DNA from: a virus
Direction: 5' to 3' (one strand)
Virus record (IMG/VR): IMGVR_UViG_3300042319_000078
Span: 1-28,417 of that record
DNA: 28,417 nt
Shown here: positions 3,019-13,460 of the stretch, in pieces
How the letters are laid out: the number at the start of each line of letters is the position of its first letter
Numbering within the stretch: the stretch's first letter is position 1
The notes under the pieces: model-generated
Databases searched by the model: none
The model's input: only the letters and a program-made list of their open reading frames with translations
What the model was told of the DNA's origin: nothing
Position numbers and translations under genes: made by a program

Positions 3019-3460
3019 TTTAAGCGAAGTTATTCGTAGCGAATCAGCAAAAAGAAACGGAATTAGCAATATGCCTATTGCTCAACACATTGAGAACTTT
3101 AAATTATTAGCAGAAAAGGTATTTGAGCCAGTAAGGGTTCACTTTGGAGTGCCTATTCACATATCAAGCGGTTACAGAAGTATTGAGTTAAATAAATGCA
3201 TTGGCGGTTCATTAACAAGTCAACATTGCACAGGAGAGGCTATTGATATTGATATGGATAGTTCTGCAAGTGATGTAACGAACAAAATGGTATTTGATTA
3301 CATTAAGGACAATTTAGTTTTTGACCAAATGATCTGGGAGTTTGGAACAAAAGAAAATCCTGACTGGGTTCACGTTTCGTATGAATCAACTGGCAAACAA
3401 AGAAAGCAAGTATTAAGAGCAGTAAGGGTTAATGGTAAAACAACATACCAAAACTATTAA
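2996..3460 (+). CDS. Endolysin, peptidase M15 family (D-Ala-D-Ala carboxypeptidase-like)
   Basis: A 154-residue single-domain protein of the M15 zinc peptidase family, which cleaves peptidoglycan cross-links or stems. The family hallmarks are visible: the ISSGYRS motif at residues 56-62, the LNKCIGGSLTSQHCTGEAID block with His77 and Asp84 as zinc ligands, a helper Glu115 or nearby acid, and WVHVSY with His126 as the third ligand. Length is normal for the stand-alone version. There is no signal peptide, so release needs the holin. It overlaps the small membrane peptide upstream and is followed one base later by a second lysin. Confidence 0.9.
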   Translation: MKLSAHLDLSEVIRSESAKRNGISNMPIAQHIENFKLLAEKVFEPVRVHFGVPIHISSGYRSIELNKCIGGSLTSQHCTGEAIDIDMDSSASDVTNKMVFDYIKDNLVFDQMIWEFGTKENPDWVHVSYESTGKQRKQVLRAVRVNGKTTYQNY

Positions 3461-8597: not shown

Positions 8598-8789
8598 ATG
8601 AGCCAAACAACACAAATCGCAAACTACCTAAATAAAGGTAGAAAATTAACCCCTATTGACGCTTTAAACAAGTTCGGATGCTTTAGATTAGCAGCACGAA
8701 TAGCTGACCTTAGAAACGATGGTATGAACATAAAAACTACCATTATTAAGCTAAAAAATAGGAAACAAGTTGCTCAATATTCATTATGA
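8598..8789 (+). CDS. Small helix-turn-helix protein
   Basis: A 63-residue protein with helices at TTQIANYLNKG and TPIDALNKFGCFRLAARIAD, a turn, then a wing-like strand pair (MNIKTTIIKLKNRKQVAQYSL). The 'L-T-P-x-D-A-L-x-x-F-G-x-x-R-L-A-A-R-I-A-D-L-R' pattern matches small HTH proteins widespread in phages. It overlaps the methyltransferase start by four bases, so it may control that gene or work with it. The DNA site is unknown. Confidence 0.7.
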   Translation: MSQTTQIANYLNKGRKLTPIDALNKFGCFRLAARIADLRNDGMNIKTTIIKLKNRKQVAQYSL

Positions 8790-9775
8790 TACACGCATCC
8801 TTATTTAGCGGAATCGGTGGATTTGATTTAGCAGCGGAATGGATGGGATGGGAAAATCTATTTCATTGCGAATGGAATCCATTTGGTCAACAAGTATTAA
8901 AACATCATTTCCCAAATTCAATAAGTTACAATGACATTACTAAAACAGACTTCTCTATTCACAGAGGACAAGTCGACATTCTTACAGGAGGATTCCCTTG
9001 CCAACCATACTCAAGTGCTGGAAAGCGACTCGGTAAAGAAGATGAGCGACACCTCTTCCCAGAAATGCTTAGAACAATTGAGCAAATTCAACCACGTTGG
9101 GTTGTGGGCGAAAACGTTCTCGGACTTGTTAATTGGAACGGGGGATTGGTATTCGAAGAAGTGCAAACTGACTTGGAGGCTAAAGGGTACGAAGTACAAG
9201 CGTTTATACTTCCAGCTTGTGCCAAAAACGCACCGCATAGAAGAGATAGAGTATGGTTTGTTGCCTACTCCAACTTCAATGGATTGCACGAATTCAACAG
9301 TAACAATGAAATCAAATCAACTGACAGAAGGATCAATGCATTCAGTAACATTAACGAGAGCATTGATGATGGGATTATTGCCAACTCCATTAGCATCGGA
9401 AGGAACAAAACTGACAGGATCACCAACGGAAAATCAAATGTCATTAACAAAATTAGCGAGGCAAGGAATGTTACCAACTCCGAACAGTTACGATTGGAAC
9501 ACGGCAAGAAGCCAAGAAACTTTAATGAAAGCAAGAGAAAGACACAAAGCAAAGGGAGTAGTTTTGCAAGTAAGTTTGAGGCAAATGGCTGGTCAAGGTT
9601 TCCAACTTTCTCCCCTGTTTGTGGGGGAGATGATGGGATTTCCAGAGAACTGGACAACATTACCTTTTCAAAGTGGAGAAAAGAATCAATAAAAGCATAT
9701 GGAAACGCAATAGTTCCACAGGTAGCTTATGAGATTTTTAAGGCAATAGAAAAGTTTGAATTATTGAAAGATTAA
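8786..9775 (+). CDS. C5-cytosine-specific DNA methyltransferase
   Basis: A 329-residue enzyme with the C5-MTase motifs in order: motif I FSGIGGFD (residues 7-14, SAM binding), motif IV GGFPCQPYS with catalytic Cys72, motif VI GENV with Glu109, motif VIII HRRDRVWFV (151-159) and motif X YGNAIVPQV (305-313). Residues 163-270 between VIII and IX, where target recognition lies, are low in complexity and Asn/Ser-rich, unlike the rest. It methylates cytosine in phage DNA, probably against host restriction. No restriction enzyme is next to it. Most of the gene (8931-9692) is also open in the +1 frame; see the nested frame. Confidence 0.93.
   Translation: MIHASLFSGIGGFDLAAEWMGWENLFHCEWNPFGQQVLKHHFPNSISYNDITKTDFSIHRGQVDILTGGFPCQPYSSAGKRLGKEDERHLFPEMLRTIEQIQPRWVVGENVLGLVNWNGGLVFEEVQTDLEAKGYEVQAFILPACAKNAPHRRDRVWFVAYSNFNGLHEFNSNNEIKSTDRRINAFSNINESIDDGIIANSISIGRNKTDRITNGKSNVINKISEARNVTNSEQLRLEHGKKPRNFNESKRKTQSKGSSFASKFEANGWSRFPTFSPVCGGDDGISRELDNITFSKWRKESIKAYGNAIVPQVAYEIFKAIEKFELLKD
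8931..9692 (+). CDS. Nested +1-frame protein inside the methyltransferase gene (253 aa, LPTP repeats)
   Basis: An ATG frame lies wholly within the C5-MTase gene, shifted by one base, and runs 253 codons without a stop in AT-rich DNA. The product looks protein-like: an N-terminal block KKMSDTSSQKCLEQLSKF and GLWAKTFSDLLIGTGDWYS, a Trp/Lys-rich segment (CKLTWRLKGTKYKRLYFQL), three LPTP repeats (LLPTP at 110 and 149, MLPTP at 180) and a C-terminal LSPLFVGEMMGFPENW at 226-241. I recall similar LPTP-repeat proteins associated with phage methyltransferases, but that memory cannot be checked here. Trp59, Trp73, Trp82 and Trp189 occur at structured places. If translated, it is co-expressed with the MTase and may assist it. 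Function is unknown. Confidence 0.55.
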   Translation: MTLLKQTSLFTEDKSTFLQEDSLANHTQVLESDSVKKMSDTSSQKCLEQLSKFNHVGLWAKTFSDLLIGTGDWYSKKCKLTWRLKGTKYKRLYFQLVPKTHRIEEIEYGLLPTPTSMDCTNSTVTMKSNQLTEGSMHSVTLTRALMMGLLPTPLASEGTKLTGSPTENQMSLTKLARQGMLPTPNSYDWNTARSQETLMKARERHKAKGVVLQVSLRQMAGQGFQLSPLFVGEMMGFPENWTTLPFQSGEKNQ

Positions 9776-9785
9776 TGTATTTTTG
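9756..9785 (+). promoter_or_regulatory. Promoter (TTTG-N18-TATTTTTG) before the replication gene
   Basis: TTTG at 9756-9759 and TATTTTTG at 9778-9785 are 18 bases apart, one of the best Bacteroidota promoter matches in the window. It overlaps the last codons of the methyltransferase. The expected start is near 9790, exactly where a folded leader begins, about 89 bases before the ATG at 9879. Confidence 0.65.
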
Positions 9786-9789
9786 TACA

Positions 9790-9878
9790 AAGGTGTCGGA
9801 TACCTTATACTAACTTATTGGCTCAAAGCTGAAACCCTAATCCGACTGGGGTGGAAGCCGAGAGCCTTTTTTATTTTT
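9790..9878 (+). ncRNA. Structured 5' leader RNA with complementary hairpin loops, candidate cis-regulator
   Basis: Hairpin P1 pairs AAGGT (9790-9794) with ACCTT (9802-9806) around loop GTCGGAT. Hairpin P2 pairs ACCC (9834-9837) with GGGT (9849-9852) around an 11-base loop containing ATCCGAC (9840-9846). The two loops are perfectly complementary over 7 bases. GGCTC (9820-9824) can pair with GAGCC (9862-9866) to enclose P2 and is directly followed by TTTTTT, like a terminator. The ATG of the next gene comes 12 bases later. An alternative AGCC at 9856-9859 competes for the same GGCT. No known riboswitch class is recognised. Confidence 0.55.
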
Positions 9879-10523
9879 ATGGCTAAAGACCCAGCGTTTT
9901 TATTCTACCCTAATGATTACATAGGGGGAACTATGGGTATGACTTTTGAGGAAAAAGGTGCATACATTGAACTTTTGATGTTACAATTTAATAGAGGTCA
10001 TATGGATGGTCATATGATAGGTCATTGTGTAGGTCAAATATGGGAAAGAATTAAATGTAAATTTATACAAGATGAACAAGGTTTATGGTATAATGAGCGT
10101 TTAGATGTGGAAAAATCAAAAAGAAAGGCTTTTAGTGAGTCAAGAAGGAATAATATTAAAGGTAATAATCAACATATGATAGGTCATATGACCACCCATA
10201 TGGAAGATGAAAATGTAAATATAATTGAAGATAAAAATATAAATATAGATTTTGAATGGTTTTGGGTTGAATATGATAAAAAGATAGGAGATAAGCAAAA
10301 GTTAAAAAAGAAGTGGAATAAATTAACGGATGAAGAAAGGCAAAATGCAATGAATTATCTTGATCTTTACAAACAATCAGTACAAGACAAACAATTCCGT
10401 AAAAACCCTGAAACCTTTTTAAACAACAAATCTTGGAACGATGAAATTATTAACCGAAGTATTACCCCAATCCATAAACTCTCTTACGCAGAACGAGAGG
10501 CTAATGCACTTAGAAATCTATAA
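9879..10523 (+). CDS. DUF1376-type replication protein
   Basis: The start is the ATG at 9879 (MAKDPAFLFYPNDYIGGTMG), the typical opening of DUF1376 proteins; the same frame extends upstream to a TTG at 9783, but that would translate the structured leader. The N-terminal 100 residues (EEKGAYIELLMLQF, IWERIKCKF, WYNERLDVEKSKR) form a winged-helix-like domain seen in phage replication initiators. A linker with repeated HM-x-GHM units follows (GHMDGHMIGH, HMIGHMTTHM), then a C-terminal helical domain ending KLSYAEREANALRNL. It probably recruits the replicative helicase. It overlaps the next gene. Confidence 0.8.
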   Translation: MAKDPAFLFYPNDYIGGTMGMTFEEKGAYIELLMLQFNRGHMDGHMIGHCVGQIWERIKCKFIQDEQGLWYNERLDVEKSKRKAFSESRRNNIKGNNQHMIGHMTTHMEDENVNIIEDKNINIDFEWFWVEYDKKIGDKQKLKKKWNKLTDEERQNAMNYLDLYKQSVQDKQFRKNPETFLNNKSWNDEIINRSITPIHKLSYAEREANALRNL

Positions 10524-12116: not shown

Positions 12117-12307
12117 TGAAAGATACATACGGAAAGAAGCTATATACCTGCAAGTGTGGTACAATTACCGAAGGATATGTATGGTTCGGTAAAATTAAAG
12201 AAACCCAATTTGAATGTACGAAATGTGGCAAATGGGTTGGATATGACAATTTAGAAAAGAAAGTAGATAGTATTATTTCAATACGAACACCAACAAAAAA
12301 CCGATAA
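12116..12307 (+). CDS. Small zinc-ribbon protein (63 aa)
   Basis: Two Cys pairs, C-K-C-G near residue 12 and C-T-K-C-G near residue 34, separated by about 20 residues with aromatic residues (YVWFGKIKET), form a likely zinc ribbon; a WVGYDNLEKK helix follows. It is coupled on both sides by TAATG overlaps to its neighbours, including the ParB-like gene. It may bind DNA or another protein. No specific family is named. Confidence 0.6.
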   Translation: MKDTYGKKLYTCKCGTITEGYVWFGKIKETQFECTKCGKWVGYDNLEKKVDSIISIRTPTKNR

Positions 12308-12831
12308 TGAACATCAACGAAATCAAACCTAATCCAAATAACCCAAGAATTATCAAGGATGACAAGTTTAAAAAGCTGGTTAAGTCAATCCAAGACTTCC
12401 CACAGATGCTTGAACTTAGACCTATTGTAATAGATGAGAACAATATTGTTTTAGGTGGCAATATGCGTCTAAAGGCTTGTATTGAAGCTGGGTTAAAAGA
12501 CGTACCTGTAAAACAAGCAAAAGACCTAACACAGCAACAAAAGAATGAATTTATTATAAAAGATAATGTTGGATTTGGTGAATGGGATTGGGATGATTTA
12601 GCAAATAATTGGAATGTTGATGATGTTTTAGAATGGGGATTAGATATACCAAACTTTATTATTGAACCAAGTTTAGATGAATTAACAGGAGTAGAAAAAA
12701 ACAATCCGCCAATCATTAAAATTACATTTGATAATGTAGAACAATTGCAAGAAGCAGAAAATGATATAAGAGAATTAATTGATAGAAAATACAAAGGAGC
12801 ATATTTTTCAGTATCAGCAGGTGAATTATGA
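12307..12831 (+). CDS. ParB/sulfiredoxin-like domain protein
   Basis: A 174-residue protein whose first 70 residues fit the ParB N-terminal fold: INEIKPNPNNPRII, a helix 'FKKLVKSIQDFP', LRPIVIDENNIVLGGNMRLK (49-56 being the box that corresponds to G-x-R-R-L-x-A), then AGLKDVPVKQA. Middle segments are Trp/Asp-rich (GFGEWDWDDLANNW). The C-terminus KYKGAYFSVSAGEL is characteristic of phage members next to terminase genes. These proteins may bind or cut DNA or hydrolyse CTP; which applies here is unclear. It overlaps the Mom-like gene by four bases. Confidence 0.85.
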   Translation: MNINEIKPNPNNPRIIKDDKFKKLVKSIQDFPQMLELRPIVIDENNIVLGGNMRLKACIEAGLKDVPVKQAKDLTQQQKNEFIIKDNVGFGEWDWDDLANNWNVDDVLEWGLDIPNFIIEPSLDELTGVEKNNPPIIKITFDNVEQLQEAENDIRELIDRKYKGAYFSVSAGEL

Positions 12832-13460
12832 GATTAGAATTAGCATCAAATAAAGCAGTAAAGTTTGCTTGTTTAAACTTTCATTATGCAAAATCTATAC
12901 CTGTAAATACAATAGGATTTTCTGTATTTAATAATAAAAATGAATGGTGTGGAGTAATTTTATATGGTACAGGTGCAAATAATCATATTGCAATGACATT
13001 TGACTTAAATCAAGGTCAAGTAATTGAATTAGTTAGAATGGCTTTGAATGGCAAACAAGAAAGCACATCAAAAGCATTATCTATATCATTAAAATTGATA
13101 AAAAAAGCAGTTCCATTGGCTAAATTAATTGTTAGCTATGCAGACAAAGACCAAGAACATACAGGAGTAATATATCAAGCTACAAATTGGTTTTATATAG
13201 GTGCATCACTTGAAAACAAAAAAGATGGCAGTTTTATTATTGATAACAAAAGAATACACGGAAAAACTTTATCTGATAAATGTAAAAGGTATGGATTTAA
13301 TAAAAATATAGATAACATAAAAATTGTATATAAGACTAATAATATTATAGAATATATAACAAAAGGCAAATTAAAATATATTTATCCCTTATATAATTCA
13401 ATGTTACCTTTGTGTAATAAATTAAAAAAGGATTATCCTAAAAAAGCGGTTATAGCATAA
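12828..13460 (+). CDS. Mom-like DNA-modification protein (GNAT-type fold)
   Basis: A 210-residue protein with the pattern of phage Mom-like acetyltransferase relatives: LNFHYAKSIPVNTIGFSVF at about 16-34, GVILYGTGANNH, and SYADKDQEHTGVIYQATNW at 103-121 followed by FYIGAS. In phage Mu, Mom adds a carbamoylmethyl group to adenine and shields DNA from restriction; members of this family often sit beside ParB-like genes, as here. The gene is richer in AAT/AAA/ATA codons than its neighbours, suggesting separate acquisition. The chemistry in this phage is inferred. Confidence 0.75.
   Translation: MRLELASNKAVKFACLNFHYAKSIPVNTIGFSVFNNKNEWCGVILYGTGANNHIAMTFDLNQGQVIELVRMALNGKQESTSKALSISLKLIKKAVPLAKLIVSYADKDQEHTGVIYQATNWFYIGASLENKKDGSFIIDNKRIHGKTLSDKCKRYGFNKNIDNIKIVYKTNNIIEYITKGKLKYIYPLYNSMLPLCNKLKKDYPKKAVIA

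Follow-up and report, generated by a model that had tools for sequence, protein, structure and literature searches.

The window analyzed here is the whole of a 28.4-kb phage contig whose signals are of the Bacteroidota type, and the hosts of the phages that carry the leader described below are probably Bacteroidota. This leader is situated in the gap that separates a C5 cytosine methylase gene (8786-9775) from a replication-initiation gene (9879-10523) and follows a promoter of the Bacteroidota sigma-A type (Table 1). In Flavobacterium psychrophilum the same -7 box is located at -12 to -5 (PMC9723704), and the predicted +1 in the window is therefore 9790, the first base of hairpin H1. A preliminary description of this DNA had also proposed a promoter here with a start near 9790; both stand, and only its spacer of 18 is one base too short. 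Among the matches listed, TAnnTTTG/TTCG lies upstream of H1 in 218 of 224 distinct upstream regions versus 2.5% of control CDS 45-mers, and in relatives of class A (see below) H1 starts no more than about three bases from the predicted +1. The conserved promoter, with its predicted +1 at H1, argues computationally against a transcript start downstream of 9806.

Table 1. Features of the leader locus, in coordinates of the window.
Feature	Position	Strand	Remarks
Bacteroidota sigma-A type promoter	9755-9785	+	Read from sequence
-33 element TTTG	9755-9758	+	Spacer of 19, then -7 box
-7 box TATTTTTG	9778-9785	+	Predicted +1 at 9790
Hairpin H1, AAGGT-GTCGGAT-ACCTT	9790-9806	+	Stem arms 9790-9794 and 9802-9806; starts at predicted +1
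H1 loop GTCGGAT, kissing partner 1	9795-9801	+	7/7 Watson-Crick with H2 loop
A/T-rich linker, single-stranded, 13 nt	9807-9819	+	Overlaps conserved AACTTATTG (9812-9820)
Hairpin H2, terminator-like	9820-9866	+	MFE fold; consensus structure in R1
H2 outer stem GGCTC/GAGCC	9820-9824 / 9862-9866	+	Followed by T-run
H2 middle helix GCT/AGC	9828-9830 / 9856-9858	+	Predicted fold
H2 3x3 purine internal loop GAA/GGA	Within 9820-9866	+	Predicted fold
H2 inner stem ACCCTA/TGGGGT	9834-9839 / 9847-9852	+	Covaries in relatives
H2 loop ATCCGAC, kissing partner 2	9840-9846	+	Covariation
T-run TTTTTT (9867-9872) and T-rich stretch to ATG	9867-9878	+	
First gene after leader, replication-initiation/primosomal protein, 214 aa	9879-10523	+	PHROGs; weak DUF1376 N-terminus

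The leader RNA (9790-9872) comprises H1, a linker, H2 and a T-run that ends 6 bases upstream of the ATG at 9879; if terminated there it would be about 83 nt long. Both hairpins, their complementary seven-base loops, GGCTC/GAGCC and TTTTTT are found exactly where they had first been placed. A further suggestion, that AGCC at 9856-9859 competes for GGCT, fails because in the predicted fold AGC at 9856-9858 pairs with GCT at 9828-9830 to form the middle helix of H2; we also rejected AGCC/GGCT competition for class A, as AGCC is not conserved in relatives. The predicted folding energy of the window leader is unremarkable (z-score only -1.64). The combination of a 7-nt H2 loop, a complementary 7-mer in the loop of an upstream hairpin and a T-run occurs once in the window, and the same architecture is expected 0.05 times in block shuffles of it.

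PHROGs assigns the product of the gene after the leader to the primosomal/replication initiation proteins. This agrees with the replication gene of the preliminary description, and its DUF1376 label corresponds to a weak match (23.1 bits, below the 30.1 cutoff, N-terminal residues 9-40). Among the matches listed, what follows the leader is in nearly all cases a replication-initiator gene, with N-terminal domains of many different kinds; of ten divergent downstream genes that we scanned, most match PHROGs families for replication initiation or for DnaD-like loaders. The cis-regulatory position proposed for the leader, with an attenuator-like H2 upstream of a replication gene, is thus supported. 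We observe that related phages swap the N-terminal domains of the replication gene and keep its C-terminal parts and the leader. Since phages freely exchange the N-terminal domain of the downstream protein and retain the leader, recognition of the leader by that protein, one of the switches suggested for it, is unlikely.

Some relatives carry other genes between the leader and the replication gene, directly after the T-run, which we identified by eye from translations: HNH (L428, L442, L498), GIY-YIG (L336, L417) and methylase (L004) genes. On L265, a contig assigned to a Lutibacter MAG, a divergent element precedes a helicase-like gene (gene call by eye). Elsewhere in the window, a Mom-family DNA modification protein (PF25680, E 4e-34; 12828-13460) adjoins a ParB N-terminal-domain protein (12307-12831), and the phage with this Mom-family protein also carries the C5 cytosine methylase.

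The leader matches no known element in the collections that we searched. Rfam 15 at the gathering threshold gave no matches in the window or in seven relatives, and the best sub-threshold match at relaxed thresholds was to a snoRNA model, on the opposite strand (E 3.6), which bears out the initial impression that no published riboswitch class is present. Searches of isolated phages returned chance matches only with blastn of the leader and one distant record with the DUF1376-like protein. A class A model run against 395 genomes from a single class, chosen around a Flavobacterium genome, gave one weak match only, in a stretch where quick inspection revealed no obvious element. We found no description of the leader element in the open-licence literature.

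Homologous leaders were collected by protein searches with the downstream gene and by two scans with linker DNA patterns that contain no loop sequences, which together gave at least several hundred loci. These fall into two main scaffolds, class A with linker AACTTATTG and class B with linker GTTTAGTGGTTAAAT and a larger H1 loop, and into the smaller groups class C (L071, L201), L009, L020/L008, L057, L223, L242 and L265. The class B linker is invariant, part of it having itself been a search pattern; AACTTATT is present also in the L265 and L009 elements, which came from searches that did not rely on it. Apart from architecture, scaffolds A, B and C and the L057/L223 types have nothing in common. 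Among the matches listed, a complement of at least 7 nt lies upstream in 73 of 75 class A leaders with an H2 hairpin, the exceptions being L347, which is without the element architecture and was treated as a chance match, and L377, which has lost its H1 loop. A loop complement is likewise found in 67 of the 69 class B elements listed, and one of the exceptions, L458, is intermediate between two loop types through an A-C mismatch.

Among 50 phage records searched, those that match class A/C or class B hold one element each, with two exceptions, namely the L020 contig, which has two elements with different loops, and one record with copies at both ends. L020 is the only contig with two genuine elements (1956-2045, GTAGGAT; 3205-3295, GTACGAG), the first of them upstream of a gene that by eye is ATPase/acetyltransferase-like. 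Minus-strand duplicates and a double class A match in one record were rejected as one element seen on both strands or at repeated contig ends. In addition, L220 and L224 have a different hairpin leader about 120 nt upstream of a DUF1376-like gene, with a long outer stem GGGTAGTGCCT/AGGCATTACCC, GGGAAGT/ACTTCCC, and internal CATCTCTG and CTTTAGCAAC common to both; it may be a second structured leader type.

To compare loops across relatives, we placed them by structure and by their distance from the linker, not by complementarity. All 32 distinct class A cores among the matches listed pair perfectly loop to loop, and when four cores of other scaffolds are included, 36 of 36 have 7/7 Watson-Crick pairs in the kissing helix. 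In this set of 36 listed sequences, 6 of the 7 pairs have changed on both sides (41 double-changed cells) with no one-sided change, and none of 500 shuffles attains the covariation score of the loop helix. Class B behaves in the same way: among the matches listed, the kissing helix is fully paired in 17 of 17 with double changes in 5 of its 7 pairs, and for the whole structure 0 of 500 shuffles attain the covariation score. The H1 stem has double changes at all five pairs in relatives, and the H2 inner stem covaries as well. There is no G-U at all in the kissing helix of structure-defined elements, whereas the stems hold 53 G-U versus 7 A-C cells on the sense strand. Because the stems use G-U and hardly any A-C on that strand, it is the sense RNA that functions. 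The matches listed include at least 17 loop-pair types, represented by the loops GTCGGAT, GTAGGAT, GTTGCAG, ATTGCAG, GTCGTAT, GTCGTTT, GTCGCAT, GTACGAG, ATGCGAC, CTAGGGA, GTAGGAA, CTGCGAA, GTACGAA, CTACGAA, GAGCGAA, AGTCCAG and AGTCGAG. The loop-loop contact first proposed from a single leader has therefore passed the covariation and conservation check on its homologs. As far as sequence comparison can carry it, the evidence for the element is decisive, and the structure, the kissing helix, the function as a sense-strand RNA, the promoter and the link to a replication gene are established computationally.

Phages that are near-identical on both flanks can carry different loop pairs. For instance, L140 and L470 show 100% identity in the 102 nt upstream and 99.8% in 600 nt of the gene, and each has one of the loop pairs AGTCGAG/CTCGACT and AGTCCAG/CTGGACT; of 5 differences in about 310 nt, two are the compensating loop pair. 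In a second example, L341 and L407 (98% upstream, 99% in the gene) have loops GTTGCAG and GTCGGAT. Between L009 and the window the whole RNA differs, and promoter and gene are closely related. Of 204 close pairs of the same geometry, 20 differ in a loop, and all 20 differ in both loops; this partly restates the complementarity, as the set holds only elements with complementary loops, and to judge from these sequences the informative part is that the switch occurs between near-identical phages. The substitution density in the loops, about 1.7 times that in the rest of the leader, suggests diversifying selection on the loops, yet it is below that at third codon positions and so the rate alone is no proof of positive selection. 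Cassette exchange between co-infecting phages could equally give the switching pattern.

Downstream of the loops, the leaders look like terminators. A GC-rich hairpin followed directly by a U-tract is present in both main classes. A T-run of 4-8 ends all 134 distinct leaders among the matches listed (some relatives have only T4), and the T fraction is 0.70 after leaders versus 0.29 before 37 other window genes. H2 of class B has the canonical terminator shape and is called by a simple terminator scan. The same scan does not call H2 of the window, since class A hairpins have internal loops, despite a GC-rich outer stem and T4-T6. By inspection we found no antiterminator in class A, and no alternative fold is conserved across scaffolds. 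In class B there is a candidate only, in which GGTTA of the linker pairs with TAACC/TAGCC/GACC of the terminator 5' arm; the class B linker of L072, GTGGTTAAATAATAATAACCC, contains this GGTTA.

Based on these data, we propose that the leader is a promoter-proximal, kissing-based transcription attenuator of the replication operon and that the terminated leader acts in trans in a type-specific manner, a proposal that we regard as evenly poised when taken whole. We infer that H2 terminates transcription, that kissing alters this termination and that the leader has its effect in trans. RNA polymerase would start at 9790 and make H1 at once, then the linker and then H2, and H1-H2 kissing would decide whether H2 works as a terminator. 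After termination the short leader RNA would be released and accumulate, and through the same loops it could compete in trans with nascent leaders of its own type. The replication initiator would thereby come under negative feedback, and co-infecting phages would interfere with each other in a type-specific way. In one consistent picture, an early cis kiss delays formation of the terminator, and leader RNA supplied in trans would occupy H1 and free H2 to terminate. We have good confidence in an attenuator with functional kissing. The trans step is a close call that stands at or just short of even; it is favored by the switch of specificity between near-identical phages, by the exclusion of wobble and by the lack of a ligand core common to the scaffolds. 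Compensatory change would, however, also follow from a purely cis contact.

Classical prophage immunity was rejected as a role for such a trans-acting RNA. It is unlikely because the relatives are without integrases: a tyrosine integrase occurs in 1 of 22 records, that one without the leader, and a serine recombinase in 0 of 21, where records may be fragments, and the genome search above gave its one weak match. A more tentative idea is that these phages, which have no detectable integrase, form RNA specificity groups, in which the terminated leader, through its 7-nt kissing code, shuts the replication operon of a same-type co-infector. Rare loop types would then be favored, and the code would switch rapidly by paired change or cassette exchange.

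It is also possible, though in our view rather unlikely, that kissing acts in cis only, with H1 and H2 of one RNA setting the strength or timing of the terminator; in a variant, a protein binds the kissed complex and the linker, and loop types drift by compensatory change or recombination. The complementarity does lie inside every molecule, the H1-H2 spacing and linker are strongly conserved, as expected for cis geometry or a protein site, and 2 of 69 class B elements among the matches listed are mismatched intermediates. By itself, however, cis contact leaves unexplained why near-identical phages have different loop pairs, why G-U intermediates are absent from the kissing helix when the stems use them, and why two elements of one phage (L020) have different loops.

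In another reading, H1 at +1 and the kissed fold could guard the 5' end of the mRNA or gate ribosomes, the T-run being merely part of a T-rich Bacteroidota 5' UTR. The start of class A H1, at most a few bases from the predicted +1, and the closeness of H2 to the ATG fit this, as does the absence of Shine-Dalgarno sequences from Bacteroidota (PMC6847099). We consider it improbable given that T-runs are 4-8 long in all leaders among the matches listed versus at most 4 before other genes, that class B H2 has a terminator shape, and that protection needs no type-switching loops. A riboswitch that senses a ligand and folds by kissing, like those of the guanidine-II or purine classes, would share the position before a gene, the terminator-like platform, the kissing loops and the conserved linkers. 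The Rfam result goes against it, the loops switch freely, even between near-identical phages, where such riboswitches conserve bases, and scaffolds that share nothing beyond architecture have no conserved core resembling a ligand pocket; the ligand-sensing switch once envisaged for this leader is thus very improbable. Least credible of all is a DNA-level element (origin hairpins, or a packaging or recombination site) located in the leader by chance: inverted repeats near a replication gene would suit it, but G-U pairs with almost no A-C on the sense strand, a promoter directly at H1 and a T-run on the sense side would not.

This RNA element is widespread, has no Rfam entry, shows loop-loop covariation of unusual clarity and sits at the control point of phage DNA replication. 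Its sequences suggest a previously undescribed RNA lock-and-key controlling phage replication, and the leader may enable phages to distinguish their own RNA from that of a rival. If the trans action is true, phages would possess a self/non-self code made of RNA only, comparable to plasmid incompatibility, readable from sequence and testable with simple reporters. The matched kissing pairs found in nature, at least 17 of them, are also a useful set for studies of RNA orthogonality.

Several known systems invite comparison. The C4 antisense RNA of phages P1 and P7 is a leader-borne RNA that controls a downstream gene; our leader differs from it in fold, host and target gene, and the C4 model (RF01695) is without a match here. 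In pT181 and pIP501, attenuation upstream of the replication initiator gene is set by an RNA-RNA loop contact. These plasmids need a countertranscript and a known antiterminator, whereas here no antiterminator is conserved across scaffolds. In ColE1, the kissing loops of RNAI and RNAII are seven bases long. Kissing loops set compatibility in ColE1, and loop changes create new compatibility types (PMC9458437). The analogy with ColE1, drawn at the outset from loop length, is strengthened by the short, strictly complementary loops that vary between types. In ColE1, however, the antisense RNA is a separate molecule, complementarity is full and a primer is controlled, whereas here both loops lie in one sense RNA, and H1/H2 complementarity goes no further than the 7-8 nt of the loops, with flanks unpaired and no extended duplex.

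The P4 CI RNA terminates its own replication operon prematurely (PMC4825925). As with CI RNA and seqA-seqC, complementary segments lie in one untranslated leader before replication genes, and premature termination before those genes (PMC4825925) is a common feature, putative here and read from sequence. In contrast, CI RNA is processed from its leader and is an antisense RNA to two complementary sites, whereas here only the 7-nt loops match, and P4 is temperate, whereas no integrase was found in the leader-bearing relatives. Because there is no longer duplex, no integrase in relatives and no Rfam model, we class the element as neither P4 nor ColE1. By analogy, its type switching nevertheless resembles the incompatibility loops of ColE1 or the CI-RNA immunity of P4 more than it resembles a ligand riboswitch.
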